Position numbers and translations under genes: made by a program
DNA from: Nitrospira japonica
GTDB lineage: Bacteria > Nitrospirota > Nitrospiria > Nitrospirales > Nitrospiraceae
Assembly: GCF_900169565.1 (NCBI RefSeq)
Contig: NZ_LT828648.1
Location: 3,942,501 to 4,006,500 of the forward strand
Direction of reading: 5' to 3'
DNA: 64,000 bases
The notes under the pieces: generated by a model
The model's input: only the letters and a program-made list of their open reading frames with translations
What the model was told of the DNA's origin: nothing
Databases searched by the model: none
Shown: positions 1,773 through 34,829 of the stretch, in pieces
Numbering within the stretch: the first letter of the stretch is position 1
How the letters are laid out: each line of letters starts with the position of its first letter

Positions 1773-2810
1773 CTAATCACCCCGTAACTGCTTCAATCTG
1801 CGAATTGCACCGCCTCCTAAAAAAGTCATAAATAGTCCCTTCCAGGACAGCCAATAATTAGCTTCTTTCAAGCTCAGCAAATAATGTTGCCGGGCCGCCT
1901 TCATTTCTTCCGCCATCTGGTGACAGTATCCGAGCGCAAAAAACTGCATCGCCAGTTTCTTACGGACATTCCTGCGCGTTGACGATGGAAGCGGACGATC
2001 CAATTGTTTCTGCATAACTTGTATGGAATGGGGGACCAATTTTGCATCGCCGAGCCCCGTTATCCCATCCGGCCTGACCCGATAACGATGACCGATCATA
2101 TCGATAAATCCGATGTCATAGGCATAGGCAATTCTCAGCCACAGATCATAATCCTCGGGACCTCTCAACCGTAGGTCAAATGGACCGACATCAGCTAAGA
2201 CCGCCTTCGGTGCCACGACTCCGGACGTGCCGATATAATTCTCGACAATCAGGGCATCATAGGCCGCCGCAGCTTGAATGACGTATTGTGACTCTCCGAC
2301 GAGCCGCTTGGGCGCGCTCTTGAAGTATTCGTAGGTGTCCAAAAACGCGCCGGCATGCTGGCCAGTGCTTTCGTCAAACTTTACAAAATTGGCAAAGACG
2401 AGGCCGAGATGAGGTTCACGATCCAGAAGATCCACGGCACGCTGAATCTTGCCTGGGAGCATAATGTCGTCCGAATCAAGAAATGCGACATACTTGCCTC
2501 GAGCCTGCTGAACCCCCGTATTCCTGGGACCAGAAGGACCACCGCTGTTCTGTTGATACACGTACCGCACGCGATCGGACTTGACGCTTGCTACCACCTC
2601 TTTTGTGTGATCGGTCGATCCATCGTCGACAACGAGAACTTCGAGCTTCGGATAATCCTGCTGGATGACCGACTCCAAAGTCTCCGCGATGTAGTTCCCG
2701 CAGTTGTACGCGGGAATTACCACAGAGACCAGAGCAGGTTCGCACGATTTCAAGTATGGCGCCGAATCTTGCGGCTTGTGGGCTGATATTGTGACTGTTG
2801 ACGGTTCCAT
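1773..2810 (-). CDS. Glycosyltransferase family 2
   Basis: Cytoplasmic GT-A fold glycosyltransferase of 345 residues, expected to add one sugar from a nucleotide donor to the growing EPS repeat. The catalytic domain starts near residue 27 with VSVVIPAYN, has the nucleotide-binding VVDDGSTD and the metal-binding FLDSDD (DxD-type), then a GPEDYDLWLRI block typical of the acceptor side. The ATG at 2808-2810 follows an AAGGGA ribosome site. About 110 C-terminal residues are helical and of unknown role. It resembles the two GT2 genes just upstream (2899-3903 and 3900-4904) in domain layout. Donor and linkage are not predictable from sequence. Confidence 0.9.
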   Translation of the reverse strand: MEPSTVTISAHKPQDSAPYLKSCEPALVSVVIPAYNCGNYIAETLESVIQQDYPKLEVLVVDDGSTDHTKEVVASVKSDRVRYVYQQNSGGPSGPRNTGVQQARGKYVAFLDSDDIMLPGKIQRAVDLLDREPHLGLVFANFVKFDESTGQHAGAFLDTYEYFKSAPKRLVGESQYVIQAAAAYDALIVENYIGTSGVVAPKAVLADVGPFDLRLRGPEDYDLWLRIAYAYDIGFIDMIGHRYRVRPDGITGLGDAKLVPHSIQVMQKQLDRPLPSSTRRNVRKKLAMQFFALGYCHQMAEEMKAARQHYLLSLKEANYWLSWKGLFMTFLGGGAIRRLKQLRGD

Positions 2811-2898
2811 GGTTCCCTTGGCTTCACCTTATTGACATACGAGGATCTTCGGAAATCTTCTCGGTCGTGTTTTTAACAGCTTCGCCAATCGTTGCTAC

Positions 2899-3903
2899 CT
2901 AAGCTCTGCCAGCATTTCGTAAGGCTCGTATGGTCTCAATCACACGGCATGGCAGAAATGAACAGCACCAGTAGAGCCATACCTTTGGGACAAACGGCTT
3001 CGATTGCATCGCAATATAGAAATGCCGACGGGCATCCTGAAGCTGGTTACGCCCAAAATAGTTCCAGCCTGCCTCCCAGGCGCGTTCACCTAAAATGTCC
3101 GTCAAAAGTCCCGCATGCTGGGGAGGTACCCATCGCATTCGTTGGTGTTTCTTACGGACCGCCATATGCGCTTCAAGCCAGCGTAGCGTCCGCACATCGT
3201 CTCCGCCTGATAGTCCCTCGGCGTGAACACGATACTTCGTGAGCACGCGATCTATAAAGATCATTGGATACTGTCTCGCAATTCGCAACCATAGATCGTA
3301 ATCTTCTCCAACTTTGAAATTCTCATCAAATCCTCCCTGTAAATCCAGCACTGACCGCCGAACCACCACGGCGGAGGTATTCATGCAGTCTCGCACTAGG
3401 AGTTGAGGGTATAGTGGGCCATAGTAACATCCGGCGAGATCTGGCCCATGGGATTGGCACCAGTCTTTGAGCATATGTTGATTCATCGATGGCTGAATGA
3501 CCGTGGTGTCTCTGAACATCATCGTGTCCGTGAATACGAGCGAAGCCTCGGGATATTTCTCGAGCGCTTGAAGTTGAAGGCGGAGTTTTCCAGGCAGCCA
3601 CTCATCATCCGCATCTTGAAAGGCAATAAATTCACCGCGCGCCTGCTGAATGCCAAGATTTCTCGCCGCTGAGACTCCACGAGGCTCTTGTGAATATCGC
3701 CGAACTCGTGCGTCCGCCATGGCGGGAACATCCCCGCGTGACGTTTTTGTCGAACTGTCAATCACGATGACTTCTATAGGAGGGCCGTCCTGATCGAGCA
3801 CGCTCCTGAGCGCCTGATCAAGATAGTCGACACAATTGTGAACAGGCACGATGACACTGACCAACGGTCTCGGCATCGTCGCATCGCCTCCAACACTACT
3901 CAT
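2899..3903 (-). CDS. Glycosyltransferase family 2 (tandem paralogue A)
   Basis: A 334-residue GT2 enzyme: LVSVIVPVHN at the start of the domain, FQDADDEW as the DxD motif, GEDYDLWLRIARQYP near the acceptor site. It is a clear paralogue of the next gene upstream (3900-4904): both have 334 residues and share EPxGVSAARN, FQDADD and a YRVH.xGLSG block. The usual VDDGSTD is VIDSSTKTS here, so the second Asp is replaced by Ser. Its ATG overlaps the upstream TGA (ATGA at 3900-3903), indicating translational coupling. Probably adds an EPS sugar; specificity unknown. Confidence 0.9.
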   Translation of the reverse strand: MSSVGGDATMPRPLVSVIVPVHNCVDYLDQALRSVLDQDGPPIEVIVIDSSTKTSRGDVPAMADARVRRYSQEPRGVSAARNLGIQQARGEFIAFQDADDEWLPGKLRLQLQALEKYPEASLVFTDTMMFRDTTVIQPSMNQHMLKDWCQSHGPDLAGCYYGPLYPQLLVRDCMNTSAVVVRRSVLDLQGGFDENFKVGEDYDLWLRIARQYPMIFIDRVLTKYRVHAEGLSGGDDVRTLRWLEAHMAVRKKHQRMRWVPPQHAGLLTDILGERAWEAGWNYFGRNQLQDARRHFYIAMQSKPFVPKVWLYWCCSFLPCRVIETIRALRNAGRA

Positions 3904-25392: not shown

Positions 25393-26682
25393 TCAGGACT
25401 CCCCATTGTCTGCAGGATTGTGATAAGTGGTCCACTTAAGCAGTGGGCGGATGACGCCAAGTATATCTCCAGCATAGTCTCCCCTTGCTGAAGTCCCTAC
25501 TCCGCTTTCATGCACATGAAAGGCAACGGCATCTAGAACATGACAATGATCATGAAATGGAACTTCGGTAATAACGGCGCAATTGACGATCAGAGTCCCT
25601 TCAGTAAGTAGATGCCCAGGAATCCATGCGGTACTGACATAACGACCAATCGGCCGAGGACGGCGTATCCATGCCGGATCACGATCATATGTTTCGAAGA
25701 CGACGACTCCTTCTTCGGTATGCAGTAGAAAGCACGGAACCAAGACCTGGCCGGGTTGAAGGACATCAAATTCCAGCGCGATGCCAATCGACTCACCAAT
25801 GTCGACCGAATCCTTTACGAACTCATTCTCTGTCCGAACACGAAGTGAGCGAAACCGTATCGTGTCGTTTCCTGGCGCAGATTCTGGGTCTACCCACTCT
25901 TTCGAAGGGGTGATGCTGCCAGCCGAATACAGATACTCCCCAACAACTTGGTGCGCAGGGCCTTCGTTAATCAGGCGTCCTTTTTCAAGTAGTATTGCCT
26001 TCTTACACAACCGTGCAACAGCCGACATGTCATGCGACACGAAAAGCACTGTTCGCCCGGACTTTCCTGCTTCAGCCATTTTATCGAAACACTTCTGTTG
26101 GAACCGACCGTCGCCGACAGCCATGACTTCATCAACTATCAGAATCTCCGGATCCATATGTGCGATCACAGAGAAGCCTAGGCGGACATGCATACCGCTC
26201 GAATAGTGCTTGACCGGCGTGTCTATGAAGCGCTCAACCTCAGAAAAAGCGACAATTTCGTCAAATTTTCGATCGATCTCACGCTTCTTCATTCCCAGGA
26301 TCGCGCCGCTCAAGTAAATATTGTCCCGGCCCGTTAGCTCAGGATGAAATCCGGTTCCTACTTCCAGAAGGCTGCAAAATCTCCCCTCCATTGCCGCACG
26401 ACCGCTTGATGGTTCTGTGATTCGTGAAAGTATCTTCAAAAGTGTGCTCTTGCCGGATCCATTACGCCCAATGATACCGACAGAATCACCCTTGTTGATT
26501 TCAAACGTGACGTCCTTCAGAGCCCAGATCAAATTGTCGTCAGGCTGGGAACTGGCACCGATTCCCAAAAGGTTACTAGCCCGATAGGCCAGTGCATCAA
26601 TCAGACGATCGTGCCGGCGGCGCGTAGACCCGATCCGATACTGCTTCGAAAGACCTTCCGCTCGTATGGCTGCATTCCCCAT
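25393..26682 (-). CDS. wzt: Polysaccharide ABC exporter ATPase with C-terminal extension (Wzt type)
   Basis: ATPase subunit of a two-gene polysaccharide exporter; 429 residues. VGIIGRNGSGKSTLLKIL is Walker A, HYSSGMHVRLGFSV the ABC signature, and EILIVDEVMAVGD Walker B. A C-terminal extension of about 180 residues after residue 250 fits the Wzt carbohydrate-binding domain, which in some systems recognises chain ends. I chose the ATG at 26680-26682, which overlaps the wzm stop by one base (TAATG), over a longer ORF start with no support. Works with the adjoining permease in the inner membrane. Confidence 0.93.
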   Translation of the reverse strand: MGNAAIRAEGLSKQYRIGSTRRRHDRLIDALAYRASNLLGIGASSQPDDNLIWALKDVTFEINKGDSVGIIGRNGSGKSTLLKILSRITEPSSGRAAMEGRFCSLLEVGTGFHPELTGRDNIYLSGAILGMKKREIDRKFDEIVAFSEVERFIDTPVKHYSSGMHVRLGFSVIAHMDPEILIVDEVMAVGDGRFQQKCFDKMAEAGKSGRTVLFVSHDMSAVARLCKKAILLEKGRLINEGPAHQVVGEYLYSAGSITPSKEWVDPESAPGNDTIRFRSLRVRTENEFVKDSVDIGESIGIALEFDVLQPGQVLVPCFLLHTEEGVVVFETYDRDPAWIRRPRPIGRYVSTAWIPGHLLTEGTLIVNCAVITEVPFHDHCHVLDAVAFHVHESGVGTSARGDYAGDILGVIRPLLKWTTYHNPADNGES

Positions 26683-27560
26683 TAGATTACGTCCGCGAAC
26701 GTCCGCTCCATCCATTTGAAATATAAAAGACCACCCAAGAGAAGCATGATCACTACTCCTGTACTCACGCCAATCGCAAGAAAATCGGGACTTACCTTTC
26801 CAAGTAAAGCCCAACGAAATCCTTCAATCACTCCAACCATCGGATTGAGACTGTAGAGCGGCCGCCACTTTTCCGGCACCATGTTCACCGAATACACGAC
26901 TGGAGAAGCATACATCCACAACTGAATGATTAGAGGAAGTACGGCTCCAATGTCTCGATATTTGACATGGATGGCCGACAGCCACAGTGACACGGCCAGT
27001 GAAGAGGCAAGTGCGAGTAGGAGTAGAAAGGGAAGTGCCAAAACCCCGTATGTTGGAACAACGCCATACCAGATCATCATTCCGATCAACAGCACCAACC
27101 CCACGAAGAAATCCACTAGTCCAACCAGTGTGGCAGAGATTGGAATGATTACTCGAGGGAAATACACCTTTTTGATTAATCCGGCTTCCGCGACCAAGCT
27201 TCCGGCACTCTTATCAAGACTTCGCGAGAAGTACAGCCAGGGAAGTAATGCCGCAAAGGCGAAGAGAGGATATGGAAGCCCGTCTGACGGGAGTTTCGCC
27301 CAGTAGCTAAAGATAACCGTGAAAATCGCCATGGAAAGTAATGGCTGCACGAGTGCCCAGCCAATCCCCATTGCCGTTTGTGCATAGCGAGCTTTCACAT
27401 CGCGCCATGCAAGGAATAGCAGTAACTCCCGATGCATCCAGATGGCGCCAAAGTCTAAGTGAAAAAGGCTGCTTGTTGGTTCAATGAGAATACGGTGGCC
27501 GCCTGCAACGTCCACTTGCAGAGTAGGTGTCGGAGCAAAGATGTCTTTAGCTGCGGTCAT
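26682..27560 (-). CDS. wzm: Polysaccharide ABC exporter permease (Wzm type)
   Basis: Inner-membrane permease of 292 residues, six transmembrane helices by hydrophobicity: ARYAQTAMGIGWALVQPLLSM and helices at about 35-55, 65-85, 115-135, 145-170, 180-200 and 230-255. It has the ABC2 permease look (LWMYASPVVYSVNMVPEKWRP and LNPMVGVIEGFRWALLG are hallmark segments). Together with the coupled ATPase it would export the completed glycan from the cytoplasm. Its ATG is separated from the deacetylase gene by 109 bases. Confidence 0.94.
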   Translation of the reverse strand: MTAAKDIFAPTPTLQVDVAGGHRILIEPTSSLFHLDFGAIWMHRELLLFLAWRDVKARYAQTAMGIGWALVQPLLSMAIFTVIFSYWAKLPSDGLPYPLFAFAALLPWLYFSRSLDKSAGSLVAEAGLIKKVYFPRVIIPISATLVGLVDFFVGLVLLIGMMIWYGVVPTYGVLALPFLLLLALASSLAVSLWLSAIHVKYRDIGAVLPLIIQLWMYASPVVYSVNMVPEKWRPLYSLNPMVGVIEGFRWALLGKVSPDFLAIGVSTGVVIMLLLGGLLYFKWMERTFADVI

Positions 27561-27669: not shown

Positions 27670-28560
27670 TTAGCCACAAACCGCGCTTTGGAGTGATTCT
27701 CGATGAGAATGCTCCATACCTTCAATAAGCCTCTGAATCGGGCCAAAACGGAACTCGCTTAGCAGGGACACAAGCCTCGGTTCTGTCTTATGAAGATTGT
27801 TGTAGTGGCGAAATCTCGACAGCAAAGAACCTTCCATGCGAGGTTGGGCTGGGTCAAGCTCCCAGGGATGAAGGTACATAACCAGCGGCTGTCTCGCACG
27901 CTCGATTCTTTTGAGAAAGCGGCGCAGAATTATGTACGGTATCAGACGGAAGTAGCCGCCACCAGCAACCGGCCATCGGAGACCGAATACTTCAATCGTG
28001 GAAGGGGGAACTTCCCACAGAAAACCGGCTTTTGTCGCTAACCGGTGGCAATGTGGTTCTGCGCCAGGCATCCCGTATCTATCGTGAACGATCGGGAAGA
28101 CACTAGAGTCATATACATAGCCCTCTTCCACAAGAATTTCCAAGGCCCATCGCGTTTCATTTGTAATTGAAAAACTCGGGGCTCGGTAGCCTAATATAGG
28201 CTTTCCAATAGCATTCTCCAGTATCTGCTTCGCCTTCCGAATATCGGCCCTGAAGCTTTCAGGCGTTTGCGTAGTCACCAATTCATGTGAGTAGCCATGA
28301 GAAGCGATCTCATGACCTTCCAGAGAAAGTGATCTGATCAATTCCGGATGGCGCTCCGCCACCCAACCAAGCACAAAGAATGTCGCCTTCATATCATGAG
28401 CTGCCAATATATCGGCGATCCTGCGCGTATTGTTTTCAACACGACTCTCAAGAGAATCCCATTGTTGCCTTCTGTTCTCAGACCAAAATGCGGATACCTG
28501 GAAATGCTCTTCCACGTCGAACGACAGACCGTGATGGAGTGCGGATTTTGCGGAATTCAT
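27670..28560 (-). CDS. XrtA-associated polysaccharide deacetylase (NodB with DUF3473-like tail)
   Basis: A 296-residue polysaccharide deacetylase of the kind found in exosortase-A EPS loci. GLSFDVEEHFQVSAFWSEN is motif 1, EIASHGYSHELV motif 2 (HxxxH), LGYRAPSFSI motif 3, and a C-terminal DUF3473-like region contains PVAGGGYFRLIPY and MYLHPWELDPAQPRM. It lacks a signal peptide. Its ATG overlaps the sugar transferase stop by four bases (ATGA, 28557-28560), coupling the two. It probably removes N-acetyl groups from the EPS or its precursor. No exosortase gene is in this window. Confidence 0.9.
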   Translation of the reverse strand: MNSAKSALHHGLSFDVEEHFQVSAFWSENRRQQWDSLESRVENNTRRIADILAAHDMKATFFVLGWVAERHPELIRSLSLEGHEIASHGYSHELVTTQTPESFRADIRKAKQILENAIGKPILGYRAPSFSITNETRWALEILVEEGYVYDSSVFPIVHDRYGMPGAEPHCHRLATKAGFLWEVPPSTIEVFGLRWPVAGGGYFRLIPYIILRRFLKRIERARQPLVMYLHPWELDPAQPRMEGSLLSRFRHYNNLHKTEPRLVSLLSEFRFGPIQRLIEGMEHSHRESLQSAVCG

Positions 28561-29630
28561 CGAGCCCCTTCACCCAAACTAATCACTCGGACGGTTTCGA
28601 TCAAGATACGAAAATCCAATCGGAGTGACAGGTGCTTCACATAGTACAAATCATATTGGAGTTTGACATGGGAATCTTCAACAGAGGCGCCATAGCGGAA
28701 CTGGGTCTGAGCCCACCCCGTAATTCCAGGCCTTACGGCGTGACGAATATCATAATAAGGAATGACCGACCGGAGTTCCTGAACAAACACCGGACGTTCC
28801 GGACGAGGACCAACAAGACTCATTTCCCCTTTGAGCACATTGATGAGCTGCGGAATCTCATCAAGCCTCCATTTCCTCAAGTATCGACCCACTCTTGACA
28901 CACGCGGATCCTTTTCAGTTGTCCAACGTGCGCCACCCTTTTCGGCATCGATAAACATCGAGCGAAACTTCCAGATCATATATGGTTGAGCGCGAAGACC
29001 AACTCTCACCTGGCGATAAAATACCGGACCAGGCGAATCTAGCCGAATGATGATTCCAACCAGAACCATTACCGGCAGGAGGGCCGCGAGCCCTACAAAT
29101 GATAGACACACATCGATAAACCGCTTGAGCGTTTTCACGATAAAGCCAGCGCGAAAACCTGTGGAAAAAATGATAGCACTAGGCTTAAGCTCGTCTATCG
29201 GAATCCGGCCCGACTCTTCTTCATACAAATGATGTCCGTCAAATACATCAATTCCCATCCCCTTCAAATCGAGCAACTCTTTGAGGGGAAGTATTGCCCG
29301 TCGATCTTCTAGACAAACGGCAATCGTATCCACCCGGTGACGCTCGACGACATCGACGAGCTGATCCATTACACCGATTACCGTTTGTTCTCTCGAGCCT
29401 TCGAGCATTTGCGCATCATCTTTCGCCAGCATTCCCACCACGTCTGTGAACATCCTTCTTCGAGAAAGCAGGATCTGCGAAAGGTCGCGGGCAAGTGGCC
29501 CGGTTCCAAGAATGAGTATTCTTCGCTTGGCGCCGGGTACGCGAAAAATCGCCTTCGGTGCACGCTCGTCGACGAAGGGCCGAACCCTCTGCGATCCTGA
29601 TCTATCTGAGCTGCTTACGATTAGACTCAT
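28557..29630 (-). CDS. Priming sugar transferase without N-terminal membrane bundle
   Basis: A 357-residue phosphoglycosyl transferase that would attach the first sugar-phosphate to undecaprenyl phosphate. The N-terminal part is a CoA-binding-like Rossmann domain ([15 protein letters not shown]), then one transmembrane/reentrant helix ([19 protein letters not shown]) and the catalytic domain: [62 protein letters not shown]. Typical family members are about 460 residues and begin with four or five helices; these are missing here. Start chosen at ATG 29628-29630 (29 bases inside the Wzc gene), with TAGGG ahead of it. Confidence 0.88.
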
Positions 29631-31881
29631 AAACCCTACTGCTGTAGTTGTAATAGGAGTACGGTGCATCCTGCGCTTCAACTCCATTCAAGATGACCGC
29701 AACCGCTCTTTCCTGCCCAATCATCTTGATTGCGCTACTCACCACGTCGCGGGAAGTGGCTCGAGCCCTAACGACATGGGCCACCACATCCGCGGACCTA
29801 ACTATGAGCATGGCCTCTGCGACGGGGAGTAAGGGCGGAGAATCCACAACGACATAGTCGAATCGCTCTCTCAAACTGGCAATGAGTTCGGAGAGTCGGT
29901 CAGCATGAGTCAGAGCAGCAGTTCCAGACTGCTCGATTCCGGCCGGCAGAATCCAAACCCCCAATTGCTCATGGTATTCTAAGCACTCCTCCAATGTCTT
30001 GTGTCCAAGTAGCACTTCAGCTACTCCCGCTGCCAACTCTAAGCCTGCATAGGCATGCACCATTGGTCTTTTCAGGTCACAGTCCAGAAGTACTGTCTTC
30101 CTATTCAAGTCTCTTGAAAGAACATGAGCCAGATTCAGTGCCGTAGAGGTTTTCCCTTCCCCCATCAAAGCACTCGATATACACACCACCGTGCTTTTTT
30201 GTTTATCGACCATTAGACCAAGTCTGGTAGCAGCCACGCGATATTGCTCGGCAACAGCCGACCTCGGATACCACATAGCCACAAGCTCCGGTCCAACGGC
30301 GACCTGCATAGCACCGGACGTTGTTGAATCCTCCCGATTGAGGCCCGGCAAGGACAGCAGCCGTGGTTTTCGCGCGACCGGTTCCACCGATCCCTTGGCG
30401 GATCCGGGCCAAGCCGACTCAAACTGAGAAATAGCCGCAAGAACCGGAAGCCCGAGAGTCAGTTCCACCTCTTCCGCAGACACAAAGCCTCGCCGCAACA
30501 GTTCTATCCCAAAGGCTGAGCCAAAACCTACCGCACATCCAAAACCGAAACCTCCAAACAGGATGAAGTAGATATTCGGTTTCTCAGGCAGATTGGGCAA
30601 ACCGGCTTGCTGAACGATGCGCAGCTTGGTCCCCTGACTCTTCTGCTCCAAATCACTAGCCATACCGATCGTCATTTTCTTTTCGAGAATCGATTGGTAG
30701 TTTTTCTGCAAATTTTCATAGTCACGCTGTATCGACATCAATTCTTGCTGGTTTACTGTCGTACCCTCAATCCTAGCCTCATATTTTCGGATCTCAGCCT
30801 TGATACGAGATTGTCGAAGCCGAACCAGTTCCAACTCCCTCAGGATGTCTTCGCGCTGCTTCGTCAATTCCGTCTTATACGGATCAATGGCCTTGCGTTT
30901 GCGCTTGACGCCGGTGTCACTATCAATGGCAGGCTCTTGATCTATATAGAGCTCAATGTAATCTTCGGTGCTCATCGCCTGCAATTTTTTGATCTCATTG
31001 CGGACGCTCGCAACATCAGGATATGACTCTTTATATGTGGATTGCAGTGCGGCTAGATTTCGTTCCAACTGCTTGATCCGCGACAGACGCGGGTCTTTCG
31101 TGGCGCGCTGAGGCCCTACATCGCTGGCAGGATCCTCATACTCTCTAATTGCCTTGTCCACAGAATCCAGACGCAAGCTGACCGTTTTCTCCACCTCCTG
31201 CTGCGCAGCCAATTCAGTTTCCAGGCGATCAATCGCGTGCATATTAGAATTGAGCTGTTCGGGAAGCTGTCCCAGGTGGGATTGTTTGAATTCGGCGAGC
31301 GCCTTCTCCTTCACCTCTAATTTTTTTTTCAGGACATCTAACTCGTGCTGCAAGAACTCCGATGAACTTTCCGCAATGACGGCACGACTTTCACTGTGTT
31401 CTTTCACGAAAAGGCCCGACAGTCTGGCTATTACGTCCCTTGCCATCTCCGGACTAGAGTCGGCGAAGGACACCCGTACAAAAGGAGCTTCTTTCACGTC
31501 AAACTTGACTTCCTTACGCATCCTTGAGGCGATATAGTCATCGTATTCTCGAGTCGACCCTTCCTTTTCATAGCCGTAGAGGTGGAATTCTTGAGCCACC
31601 TGCATTAACAATTCTTGCTTATACAGCCATTCACTCATCGCACCGACTCGATTGGCCATGACAAACTCAGGCTTGTCTCCTGCGGGTTCATCGACACTTT
31701 GAACATAGCGTACTTTTTGTTCTTCGAATTGGACTAAGACACTGGACCGATAACTCTTTGGCAACCATTCATAGAGTCCCCAGGAGAGCCCCGTGGACAC
31801 CACGACGGCCACGATGATCATCCATTTATGATTATTTACGACTCTGAGATAGTCCTCAGGAGTATTGAGACCTGTGTACAC
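29602..31881 (-). CDS. wzc: Polysaccharide co-polymerase / tyrosine autokinase (Wzc-type)
   Basis: A 759-residue inner-membrane co-polymerase joined to a BY-kinase, controlling EPS chain length and assembly. Helix 1 is near residues 17-35; a long coiled-coil periplasmic part follows (residues 160-420); helix 2 near 440-460; then the kinase with VCISSALMGEGKTSTALNLAHV (Walker A), VVLLDCDLKRP (A') and FDYVVVDSPPLL (Walker B). The end is a tyrosine cluster, [12 protein letters not shown], the expected autophosphorylation site. The GTG at 31879-31881 is the apparent start. A nine-base A tract lies at 31321-31329. Confidence 0.95.
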   Translation of the reverse strand: MYTGLNTPEDYLRVVNNHKWMIIVAVVVSTGLSWGLYEWLPKSYRSSVLVQFEEQKVRYVQSVDEPAGDKPEFVMANRVGAMSEWLYKQELLMQVAQEFHLYGYEKEGSTREYDDYIASRMRKEVKFDVKEAPFVRVSFADSSPEMARDVIARLSGLFVKEHSESRAVIAESSSEFLQHELDVLKKKLEVKEKALAEFKQSHLGQLPEQLNSNMHAIDRLETELAAQQEVEKTVSLRLDSVDKAIREYEDPASDVGPQRATKDPRLSRIKQLERNLAALQSTYKESYPDVASVRNEIKKLQAMSTEDYIELYIDQEPAIDSDTGVKRKRKAIDPYKTELTKQREDILRELELVRLRQSRIKAEIRKYEARIEGTTVNQQELMSIQRDYENLQKNYQSILEKKMTIGMASDLEQKSQGTKLRIVQQAGLPNLPEKPNIYFILFGGFGFGCAVGFGSAFGIELLRRGFVSAEEVELTLGLPVLAAISQFESAWPGSAKGSVEPVARKPRLLSLPGLNREDSTTSGAMQVAVGPELVAMWYPRSAVAEQYRVAATRLGLMVDKQKSTVVCISSALMGEGKTSTALNLAHVLSRDLNRKTVLLDCDLKRPMVHAYAGLELAAGVAEVLLGHKTLEECLEYHEQLGVWILPAGIEQSGTAALTHADRLSELIASLRERFDYVVVDSPPLLPVAEAMLIVRSADVVAHVVRARATSRDVVSSAIKMIGQERAVAVILNGVEAQDAPYSYYNYSSRVYESNRKQLR
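31321..31329 (-). repeat. Nine-base A tract in wzc (T9 on plus strand)
   Basis: T9 on the plus strand encoding the Lys-Lys-Lys of the coiled-coil region. A slippery homopolymer of this size in a long kinase gene may allow transcriptional slippage or on/off switching; read in frame here. Confidence 0.85.
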
Positions 31882-31905: not shown

Positions 31906-33462
31906 TTACTTTCCAGGCCCCAGTAGGGTCCCACCACCGGACGGAATCGCCCCAGGTCCTGCATCTGAAGGAGTCCCACCTTCAGCGGGAGCGGCCGTTC
32001 CAGAGGTTCCGAATGACCCCAGCCCCCCCATGCGGAAGAAAGATTGATTGGTAAACGCGTAGGAAAGCGTTAACATCACCATCTTCTTTGAAAATGCATA
32101 TTGATCTTCAATTCCAGTTGGCTGTTCATTCATATTAGAAAAATACATCCATCTGTAGGTCAAATTGGCAAGCACTGGACCGATTAAGTAACTGGCCCCA
32201 ACACTCGCATTTACTGAATCGAATGTTGATTGGGGATCACTGGTTGAACCATGCGAATAGTTAAGGCCTAGCTGACCCGAAAGTTTGGAAGTAATTCCAC
32301 CGGTGATATTTGCCCCAGCAATGTGTGTTTTCATTGGGCCAGATCCAATAACGAAACTGGGATAGACGTTGTAGTTGTAACTCAGCCTGGTTCCGAACTG
32401 ACCGGGTGGCATGATCCCACCAGGCATCAATGTCCCTTCCAAAGCAGGCAAGCCATCGAACGGCGCAGGGGCGGCTGCACCAGCAGCTCTAAGTCCCTCA
32501 GAAAATGTTACGTAGTTTAAATTAGCAGTGATGGCAGGAGCTACTTGCAATGGAACCCTTTGCCCAGCACCCGTCGAATCGATAGGCATAGTCATGACAC
32601 CACCACCCATCAGCGTCGTGCTCAGCGTTGGGGTCCATTTTCGATCCCAATTCAACGTTCCATTGAAGGTAGTGAAGGAGCTCGACCCCCCGGTATTGCC
32701 TTGTTGATCGAAATGGGACATCCGCGCAGTGGTTCCCACTGTATCCCGGAGCGACAATTGGTTCGCAATGGTCATTGTGGCCTGATGGCCGTCTGTATCG
32801 AAAAGCTGATTCTCAACTCCTCCGGACTGGCCACTGAAGTGGATCTTGGAATAGTTATAGCTGCCACTTACAGTTGTGGTACGCGTCAGCAAGTATCCGG
32901 CATTTACTCCAAAATTCAGGTTGTGTGTGTACACGCGGTTCGTGACTTGTCCGACGTTCAGCGGAGAGGTTATCGTCGTCGCTCCTGCTCCGGCGCCGAT
33001 ACCTCCTCCCGTCGCTCCAAAGGAGGTCACGGACGGGGTGAATTGATATGTTCCAAAAAGGCCGAAGGAGACGATGCGTTGGGAAATTCTGTCTGCGTAG
33101 TTCTTGAGGTCAAGACGTCCAGTAGCATTGAGTCCCGTATAATTGAGATTGCTGTTGTGCGCGTACATCGAAACGATGCCTCCGACCGCAAAACTACTTC
33201 GCACACGCGATCCTAATTGCGCCACGTTGATCTGAGGCGTAATCTGCGTGATGAAATCTTCAGGTTGAGTGCCTGGCTGCAATAGCGACTTGGGGGTATA
33301 AAAGACATTTGAATCATAAGTCTCAGTGACCGACACGGTTGGAATAATACGTGTCTGTGCAAACGCACTCATGTTCATGAACCAGCCGAGGGTTGCAAGC
33401 ATGATGAAGGTGAAGAGAGCCCATTGTCCAGTTAGGCCGGAATCACGGTACAACAATGACAT
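31906..33462 (-). CDS. Outer-membrane beta-barrel protein of the EPS export locus
   Basis: A 518-residue outer-membrane protein. The signal peptide ends near MSAFAQ and is followed by RIIPTVSVTETYDSNVFY, which resembles PEP-CTERM-associated outer-membrane barrels. The body is rich in alternating hydrophobic strands, ending with MVMLTLSYAF, where a barrel would normally stop. About 40 Gly/Pro/Ala-rich residues follow, an unusual tail. ATG 33460-33462 has AAGG six bases ahead and lies inside the wza gene by about 20 bases. Short Wza proteins without their own outer-membrane helix may use this barrel as the pore. Confidence 0.82.
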   Translation of the reverse strand: MSLLYRDSGLTGQWALFTFIMLATLGWFMNMSAFAQTRIIPTVSVTETYDSNVFYTPKSLLQPGTQPEDFITQITPQINVAQLGSRVRSSFAVGGIVSMYAHNSNLNYTGLNATGRLDLKNYADRISQRIVSFGLFGTYQFTPSVTSFGATGGGIGAGAGATTITSPLNVGQVTNRVYTHNLNFGVNAGYLLTRTTTVSGSYNYSKIHFSGQSGGVENQLFDTDGHQATMTIANQLSLRDTVGTTARMSHFDQQGNTGGSSSFTTFNGTLNWDRKWTPTLSTTLMGGGVMTMPIDSTGAGQRVPLQVAPAITANLNYVTFSEGLRAAGAAAPAPFDGLPALEGTLMPGGIMPPGQFGTRLSYNYNVYPSFVIGSGPMKTHIAGANITGGITSKLSGQLGLNYSHGSTSDPQSTFDSVNASVGASYLIGPVLANLTYRWMYFSNMNEQPTGIEDQYAFSKKMVMLTLSYAFTNQSFFRMGGLGSFGTSGTAAPAEGGTPSDAGPGAIPSGGGTLLGPGK

Positions 33463-34084
33463 CACCAGCCTTCAGGACGATATTTGCCTCCAGGTTTCTG
33501 CCTTGGACAATATCTTGATAAGGAACCGGAATCATGACCTGCTTCGTTTCCCCCTGTCCGTTCTTGACCATTCTGAGAACATGCACATTATTTCTGGATG
33601 CGAAGGTCGTGAACCCTCCGGCGTATGAGATTCCTTGAAGCACACTCGCAAAAGACTTCAGTACGTACTTGCCAGGCTTAGCGACTTCACCGACAACGAA
33701 CACATGGTAACTATTGATTTCTTTAACCTGCACTGACACGGTCGGCGTCGACATGTATTCCGCGAGCTTGTCCGCGACCTGCTTTGACAAATCCTGTGCG
33801 GTAAGACCGGCCGCTGTTATATCGCCGATGAGAGGAAGAGAAATTTTCCCATCGGGCCTGACAATAACCTCTTTGGAGAGGTCCTGATTCCTCCAAACAG
33901 TGACGACCAATACATCTTCCGGGCCAATAAGAAATTCGGTGGGAGGCACAGAGGAGCCGCGATATTGCATATCTTGCGACTGACAACCCACCATCGAATA
34001 TTGCAGCAACAGTACGAGAAGCCCTGCAATAAGACGCCCTTTGCCGTTACGTTTACCACTGAAAATGCTTTTCACTACGCCCAT
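33443..34084 (-). CDS. wza: Polysaccharide export lipoprotein, Wza/OPX type (copy 1)
   Basis: A 213-residue export protein. The signal ends at SMVGC, a lipobox, giving an outer-membrane lipoprotein. Then come FLIGPEDVLVVTVWRNQDLSKE (Poly_export domain), KISLPLIGDITAAGLT and a SLBB domain, HVFVVGEVAKPGKY and LQGISYAGGFTT. Length is half that of E. coli Wza (about 380), and the second SLBB repeat and outer-membrane helix are missing. It is a near-duplicate of 34149-34829, 64 bases upstream. Probably forms the periplasmic part of the export conduit. Confidence 0.92.
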   Translation of the reverse strand: MGVVKSIFSGKRNGKGRLIAGLLVLLLQYSMVGCQSQDMQYRGSSVPPTEFLIGPEDVLVVTVWRNQDLSKEVIVRPDGKISLPLIGDITAAGLTAQDLSKQVADKLAEYMSTPTVSVQVKEINSYHVFVVGEVAKPGKYVLKSFASVLQGISYAGGFTTFASRNNVHVLRMVKNGQGETKQVMIPVPYQDIVQGRNLEANIVLKAGDVIVVP

Positions 34085-34148
34085 GTTGGCTCCATGAGAC
34101 CAGAATTTCTATATGTACAGCGCTCGTCGCGCGATCTTAGTTCAGCTT

Positions 34149-34829
34149 CTACCGACTCGGCAGCACCACCATGGTCTCGGATGGGACGACGATCTGATCA
34201 CCTGGCTTCAATTCGATGTTTTGACTGGACCCATCTCGTACAACAATGTCGTCGTAGCTCGCCTTGAGCTTGGTCTGCCCTTCGCCGTCCTTCGTAAACC
34301 GGAACACCACAATCTTGTTTCGGGCCGCCATGGGCGTGAACCCGCCAGCAACAGTAATGCCTTGCAGTAAGGTGGTCTTGCTCTTCAGGGGAAACTTTCC
34401 TGGCTTGTTAACTTCGCCCAAAACGTAAATGTTATAGCTCTGTACATCCTTTATCATGATGGAAATCGTGGGATTTTCCATGTAGGCCCTGAGTCCTGTC
34501 GAAATCTCCTCGGTCAATTGAGTGGGTGTCTTTGCGACTGCGGAGATATCTCCCAAGAGAGGAAGCGAAATTCTTCCATCTGGCCTCACCTGGACTTGCT
34601 TTGACAGATCTGCGTTCTTCCAGACGGTAATCTCCAAAACGTCTTCAGGACCTATAATATATTCCGGCGTGACTATTAGGAGTGATTTTTCGGCAGCGCC
34701 AGGTGCCGCTGCTTTAGTGGAAGCCGCACCATGCTTCTTGGGATCAACCTCTTGTGCTGAAACGACTGACATACCAGTCAGTAGTGTTAGTAGCACCGCG
34801 TACACTCCAAGTACATTTGTCTTCCGCAT
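34149..34829 (-). CDS. wza: Polysaccharide export protein, Wza/OPX type (copy 2, signal peptide but no lipobox)
   Basis: A 226-residue export protein closely resembling copy 1: EYIIGPEDVLEITVWKNADLSKQ, GRISLPLLGDISAVAKT and IYVLGEVNKPGKFPLKSK match almost block by block. The signal peptide ends near SVVSAQ, with no Cys, so it is periplasmic rather than lipidated. It is the first export gene after the RfaH-like gene, with ATG 34827-34829 behind a GAGG site. The 113-base gap before it holds the ops-like element. Tandem copies with one lipidated and one soluble form suggest a two-component ring. Confidence 0.9.
   Translation of the reverse strand: MRKTNVLGVYAVLLTLLTGMSVVSAQEVDPKKHGAASTKAAAPGAAEKSLLIVTPEYIIGPEDVLEITVWKNADLSKQVQVRPDGRISLPLLGDISAVAKTPTQLTEEISTGLRAYMENPTISIMIKDVQSYNIYVLGEVNKPGKFPLKSKTTLLQGITVAGGFTPMAARNKIVVFRFTKDGEGQTKLKASYDDIVVRDGSSQNIELKPGDQIVVPSETMVVLPSR

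Follow-up and report, generated by a model that had tools for sequence, protein, structure and literature searches.

A translocon made of a short OPX protein and an 18-stranded outer-membrane beta-barrel was established by Schwabe et al. (PMC9601211) and Saidi et al. (PMC9603273). The described cases are the EPS, BPS and MASC systems of Myxococcus xanthus (EpsY/EpsX = WzaX/WzpX, WzaS/WzpS and WzaB/WzpB) and the VPS system of Vibrio cholerae (VpsN/VpsM). All are of the class-3 (D1D2) OPX/barrel type: the OPX has a single Poly_export and a single SLBB domain but lacks an outer-membrane helix, the barrel is encoded next to it (the defining limit being five genes) and a Wzc-like co-polymerase lies nearby. 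As read here, and with no criterion stated for it, they have one OPX per barrel. The short OPX proteins of myxobacteria are, all but one, predicted lipoproteins, and the accessible part of PMC9601211 makes no mention of a soluble OPX partner. A word search turned up neither a two-OPX arrangement nor Nitrospira in the texts of PMC9601211 and PMC9603273, and a wider search of published article texts gave nothing relevant on a second or additional OPX.

What these systems leave to be explained is the route of the polymer from the co-polymerase to the class-3 OPX/barrel pore, where a single short ring leaves ~100 Å of periplasm (PMC9603273). Stacking of the OPX rings, their placement at the two ends and shuttling have each been put forward in published models, and Saidi et al. 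discuss both separate OPX pools (Model 2) and stacked OPX layers (Model 3) (PMC9603273). In the PelBC exporter of Pseudomonas aeruginosa the periplasmic lipoprotein ring PelC can sit on the exopolysaccharide export barrel PelB (PMC12141448); PelC, however, is not an OPX, and it is the single ring protein of a synthase-dependent pathway. In E. coli, Wza docks on the kinase-fused co-polymerase Wzc as an octamer, and the two form a continuous channel (PMC12881504).

A predicted export locus of Nitrospira japonica

The window analyzed here is a stretch of 64,000 nucleotides (positions 3,942,501-4,006,500) from the 4.08-Mb genome of N. japonica, which lies on a single contig. Two OPX genes and a barrel gene follow one another on its minus strand, exactly where the first-pass annotation had placed three such genes (31906-34829): OPXa (34149-34829), OPXb (33443-34084) and the barrel (31906-33462). 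A gap of 64 nt separates OPXa from OPXb, and the 3' end of OPXb overlaps the ATG region of the barrel gene by 20 nt. The two OPX proteins had been put at about 215-225 residues; they are indeed short, but their lengths are 226 and 213. Each has a Poly_export Pfam match (E ~1e-24) and one SLBB domain, which together with their size places both in class 3 (<=280 aa, Poly_export plus one SLBB). The marks of class 1, a second SLBB and a C-terminal Wza_C helix, are absent from both proteins according to domain matches and alignments, in agreement with the earlier reading. E. coli Wza shares the Poly_export domain with them but differs in carrying a second SLBB domain and in forming a helical outer-membrane pore by itself, so that it can do without a barrel. 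Among solved structures, the one closest in sequence to both copies is 9n9a, named by the fold search as the class-3 OPX WzaB of M. xanthus. The structure model of OPXa is poor (pLDDT 57), and its fold match therefore adds little to what the sequence match already shows.

OPXa is predicted to be soluble. It consists of a Sec signal peptide of the signal peptidase I type (cleavage VVSA|Q), a linker of ~30 aa, Poly_export at residues 54-126, one SLBB at 134-215 and the tail SETMVVLPSR. The tail (codons 217-226, S217 E218 T219 M220 V221 onward; 34152-34181, minus strand) is common to all aligned OPXa and absent from OPXb, and its residues E218, M220 and V221 are invariant in 34/34 aligned OPXa. 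These 10 residues are all that OPXa has past the SLBB, too short for a membrane span, and the poor model has no helix there. The sites conserved only in OPXa number 11 plus the tail in the SLBB half vs 5 in D1, too few for significance.

OPXb is a predicted lipoprotein with Poly_export at 47-121 and one SLBB at 128-176; it ends at GDVIVVP with this single SLBB and has no C-terminal outer-membrane alpha-helix. Its lipobox (SMVG|C) leads to Cys34 (codon 33983-33985, minus strand), which is invariant in 26/26 aligned OPXb, and Asp never occurs at +2 in these 26. In E. coli, lipoprotein sorting is read from residue +2, and by that rule OPXb would be expected to go to the outer membrane. The D1 motif W-[KR]-N-x-[DE]-L-S is kept in both OPXa and OPXb, indicating that the D1 tip has been lost in neither. 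The Wza D1 residues D99 and E102 touch Wzc (PMC12881504); by a hand count on the Wza sequence in the alignment, they correspond to Lys and Asp in OPXa and to Arg and Asp in OPXb.

The third protein had been described as a 518-residue beta-barrel adjoining the OPX pair, and both length and fold hold. The length is counted from the ATG, with a GTG one codon upstream. The AlphaFold model, built from 50 relatives, has exactly 18 strands (pLDDT 75.8, pTM 0.70), and the Foldseek matches listed for it are outer-membrane barrels, with PelBC (9h80) at rank 12 and 4y25, labelled polysaccharide outer-membrane secretin, at rank 27. It resembles the BBP2_2/EpsL/TIGR03016 type, although family matches are weak (PF10082 at 26.6 bits; TIGR03014 and TIGR03016 below cut-off) and cover only a stretch near the N-terminus; 48 of the 50 aligned relatives match TIGR03016. 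After the last strand the model has a low-confidence tail rich in G, S and P (residues 476-518; 31909-32037, minus strand). Similar tails are present in barrels of type I relatives, e.g. GKSGSGGVDTKK, and at ABC-type loci the last strand is in many cases also the end of the barrel protein, e.g. LTAQWK. A beta-signal away from the C-terminus is unusual.

The remaining genes of the cluster likewise lie on the minus strand. Upstream of the OPX pair lies a NusG/RfaH-like antiterminator gene (34943-35446); such a gene precedes the pair at many loci, which suggests an operon-specific antiterminator. Downstream of the barrel, domain and family matches identify a Wzc-like polysaccharide co-polymerase (PCP) fused to a BY-kinase (29602-31881, 759 aa), with a periplasmic loop of ~400 aa, an initiating sugar-phosphate transferase of the TIGR03013 family (28557-29687), an XrtA-type polysaccharide deacetylase (TIGR03006/DUF3473; 27670-28560), an ABC-2 polysaccharide exporter permease (26682-27560) and an ABC exporter ATPase with a weak Wzt_C match (25393-26814). 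Glycosyltransferases and nucleotide-sugar enzymes come after the ABC genes. The TIGR03013 match of the transferase starts only at position 118 of 443, so that the N-terminal membrane part seems to be missing; its relatives are similarly long (open frames of ~350-395 aa). Promoter and terminator scans gave counts near chance, and no tandem repeats were found.

A hydropathy scan of the open frames, a crude test, found the ABC permease to be the sole candidate inner-membrane polymer exporter in the cluster and detected no Wzx- or Wzy-like polytopic protein there. Judged from gene content, the polymer pathway is therefore likely ABC-dependent, unlike that of the Myxococcus and Vibrio translocons. 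Between 25393 and 31881 a kinase-fused Wzc-like co-polymerase and an ABC exporter share one operon with no Wzx/Wzy candidate. In ABC capsule systems the co-polymerase is usually kinase-free. XrtA/PEP-CTERM loci share the OPX (TIGR03027), PCP (TIGR03007), barrel (TIGR03016), deacetylase (TIGR03006) and transferase (TIGR03013) families. At the window locus, in contrast, PCP and kinase are fused. Both OPX proteins score under the TIGR03027 cut-off (147.1 and 153.5 vs 180 bits), and no exosortase was found near the locus, the exosortases of this genome being only at 3.310 and 3.638 Mb vs 3.94-4.01 Mb for the window. An exosortase-linked locus of the same genome, at 3.30 Mb, has one OPX.

Conservation and ancestry of the OPX pair

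A scan of genome contigs with OPXa gave 36 loci, nearly all from Nitrospira, and at every longer locus OPXa was followed by another OPX. Genome searches widened the set to 58 distinct Nitrospirales OPXa cores, of which 53 are directly followed by another OPX in tandem, four are orphans and one has no room for a partner. Recurrence at 53 distinct loci takes the arrangement far beyond chance. The partner is lipidated at 52/53 tandem loci (51 by a scripted pattern count, plus L038, whose VEGC ending the pattern missed), and OPXa has no lipobox except for two ambiguous N-termini. The earlier observation that one copy is lipidated and the other has only a signal peptide is thus real and conserved. 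The true exception is L085, where the second OPX (2535-3143, genome G028) has no lipobox Cys (LALGSSS). It lies outside the OPXb clade, as does the second OPX of the other variant pair, L008, which is lipidated. The four orphan OPXa genes (L072, L075, L109 and L153) have an intact tail, but in their surroundings neither an OPX nor a barrel nor a co-polymerase was detected; L072 sits in the window's own genome (G000:C1, 2.960 Mb).

At a stringent threshold, OPXa was found in 66/296 genomes of the phylum, 59 from the window's family and 7 from another family of the order, and in none beyond those two families in this sample. OPXa also occurs in a third family of this order (G028). Two loci assigned to other organisms, L051 (Bacteroidetes MAG SZAS-26) and L067 (Nitrosospira NOB2), closely resemble Nitrospira loci and are likely mis-binned or mislabelled contigs. 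In L092 (7564-9552, genome G048), from another family of the phylum, two adjacent OPX genes fall outside both the OPXa and OPXb clades, possibly an independent tandem pair by sequence. Of the 40 plasmid records from other phyla that were listed, five matched at two places, and in each of the four of these that were inspected the stretch shows one OPX gene.

The barrel is a near-constant companion of the pair, although not always an adjacent one. Its presence at syntenic loci had been named as one of the checks on the split-channel reading. It lies within the fetched stretch at 39 of the 46 pair loci with >=3.5 kb downstream, and is otherwise often 6-36 kb off or elsewhere: behind the deacetylase, ~6 kb off, in one family of the order (L145, L146), 17 kb from the pair in G038 and 36 kb in G228, in the same cluster in both, as a fragment at a contig end 24 kb away in G291, and elsewhere in the cluster or genome in G028, G264 and G166. 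Loci that seem barrel-less do not refute the pairing, as these six genomes hold a barrel elsewhere. The presence fails only in G032, where the profile found no barrel and the only PF10082 barrel adjoins a different OPX gene. OPXb and barrel genes overlap or abut, also at loci without OPXa.

Two sets of neighbors accompany the trio: PCP, PGT and deacetylase, or an ABC permease and ATPase beside the barrel. At the ABC-type loci there is mostly no co-polymerase near the trio. In the second pair of the window genome the nearest co-polymerase is ~50 kb off on the same strand, with largely glycan-synthesis-like genes between.

A maximum-likelihood phylogeny inferred from 69 OPX proteins, after removal of the C-terminal tail, places OPXa in one clade (bootstrap support 100/99) and OPXb in another (99/98). 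Two old clades rule out a recent tandem duplication, and on this phylogeny the pairing is ancient and order-wide in the Nitrospirales. OPXb-only loci of the same type nest at two separate points within the OPXb clade, and OPXa therefore appears to have been lost or moved away at least twice. The genomes of these loci that were checked (G125, G131, G088, G065 and G074) have OPXa at another locus, and action in trans is therefore possible. Both OPXb lineages without OPXa keep barrel and co-polymerase, which makes OPXa dispensable at the locus. Because at least two lineages have OPXb and barrel with no OPXa linked to them, the two OPX copies are not strictly required together at one locus, and OPXb would be the core partner of the barrel with OPXa an addition to it.

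Candidate arrangements of the channel

The locus very likely encodes a class-3 OPX/beta-barrel composite translocon, and the split channel of short OPX and barrel proposed in the first-pass annotation is well supported and matches the published system (PMC9601211, PMC9603273). The difference from the Myxococcus and Vibrio translocons is that the Nitrospira locus has a conserved tandem of two OPX paralogues with fixed roles, one soluble and one lipidated. On balance we favor a three-part outer-membrane polysaccharide channel, in which OPXb, anchored by its lipid to the outer membrane's inner leaflet, would form a ring on the periplasmic side of the barrel, and OPXa would form a second, soluble OPX assembly working with both. 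We infer ring formation, physical contact, the order of the parts and export by the trio from several lines of evidence: the strand number of the barrel model, which equals that reported for the Myxococcus barrels (PMC9601211, PMC9603273); the tandem order at 53/58 loci, the lipidated partner at 52/53, the two clades and the retention of the trio in both neighbor sets; and the precedents of the PelC ring on PelB (PMC12141448), to which the proposed Nitrospira ring would correspond, and of the Wza-Wzc channel (PMC12881504). The four orphan OPXa genes without OPX or barrel nearby count against it, as does the absence of OPXa from the two OPXb lineages. The ABC transporter would carry the polymer through the inner membrane, after which it would pass the co-polymerase, the OPX assembly and the barrel.

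The part played by OPXa was approached through the co-polymerase and through mirror-tree tests. The median periplasmic loop of the co-polymerase is 405 aa at two-OPX loci vs 403 at one-OPX loci, so the extra OPX does not substitute for co-polymerase length, and compensation for a shorter co-polymerase is ruled out. Partial mirror-tree correlations with PGT, DAC and BYK as controls, drawn from 19 loci that share a single operon type and also compatible with exchange of the trio as a block, were 0.66 for OPXa-barrel, 0.54 for OPXb-barrel and 0.43 for OPXa-OPXb. Those with the co-polymerase were weak (OPXa 0.13, OPXb 0.26). The value of 0.13 does not favor OPXa as the co-polymerase contact, and for an adaptor role the test, with its 19 loci and one operon type, points the other way. 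Together with the ABC-type trios that have no co-polymerase nearby, the barrel-linked signal makes OPXa, OPXb and barrel look like one outer-membrane module.

The lipidated/soluble split had been taken to suggest distinct positions in one ring; stacked rings or separate pools fit it as well. A mixed ring, with OPXa and OPXb alternating in one hetero-oligomer under the barrel, the lipidated subunits as anchors and the soluble ones tuning the pore, is a possibility to which we give clearly less weight than to the three-part channel. It would suit two proteins with the same domains and about equal D1-D2 length that both correlate more with the barrel than with the co-polymerase and both keep W-[KR]-N-x-[DE]-L-S where D1 of Wza meets Wzc (PMC12881504). 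However, OPXb occurs without linked OPXa in two lineages, and the tail and linker of OPXa, absent from OPXb, suggest a different place for it. Solved OPX rings are, to our knowledge, all homo-oligomers, which also counts against mixing. Within the favored three-part channel, OPXa is slightly more likely to form its own ring below OPXb, toward the Wzc-like co-polymerase, than to be mixed into the OPXb ring. Tentatively, soluble and lipid-anchored homo-oligomeric class-3 rings might even stack between co-polymerase and barrel and close the ~100 Å gap as a periplasm-spanning conduit.

It is rather unlikely that labor is divided without a continuous channel, in a two-gene form of Model 2 where one OPX pool is placed at the co-polymerase, a second pool at the barrel, and the polymer crosses the periplasmic gap. 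Soluble vs lipid-anchored targeting is what such a split needs, and the gap of ~100 Å was itself estimated with a single class-3 layer (Saidi et al., PMC9603273), but the mirror-tree signal of OPXa is weak with PCP and strongest with the barrel, and most ABC-type loci have no co-polymerase near the trio. Equally doubtful is a role of OPXa outside the complex, as a spare or substrate-specific alternative that replaces OPXb in some conditions. Orphan OPXa genes, single-OPXb loci and several OPX loci per genome would accord with this, but the tandem arrangement, the two clades and their signal types persist throughout the order and in different cluster types, unlike a redundant spare. That the neighborhood is coincidental and the barrel unrelated to export is very improbable: its matches to named families are weak and confined to the N-terminal region, and one family of the order does not have it directly beside the pair, but it has 18 strands as in known exporters and 48/50 TIGR03016 relatives, and where it has moved it is often still in the same cluster.

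Significance for polymer export in Nitrospira

The composite translocon itself is already known; what the literature searched does not describe is the dedicated pair of a soluble and a lipidated OPX. No work on the polymer export step in Nitrospira was found in the literature, and the locus flags a predicted surface-polymer exporter in these nitrite oxidizers. It is a case in which OPX function is split over two genes with different anchoring that have been kept together across the order. Such a two-gene version could tell the stacked scheme (Model 3) from the separate-pool scheme (Model 2), since its two OPX can be addressed one at a time, which is impossible where one OPX does all.
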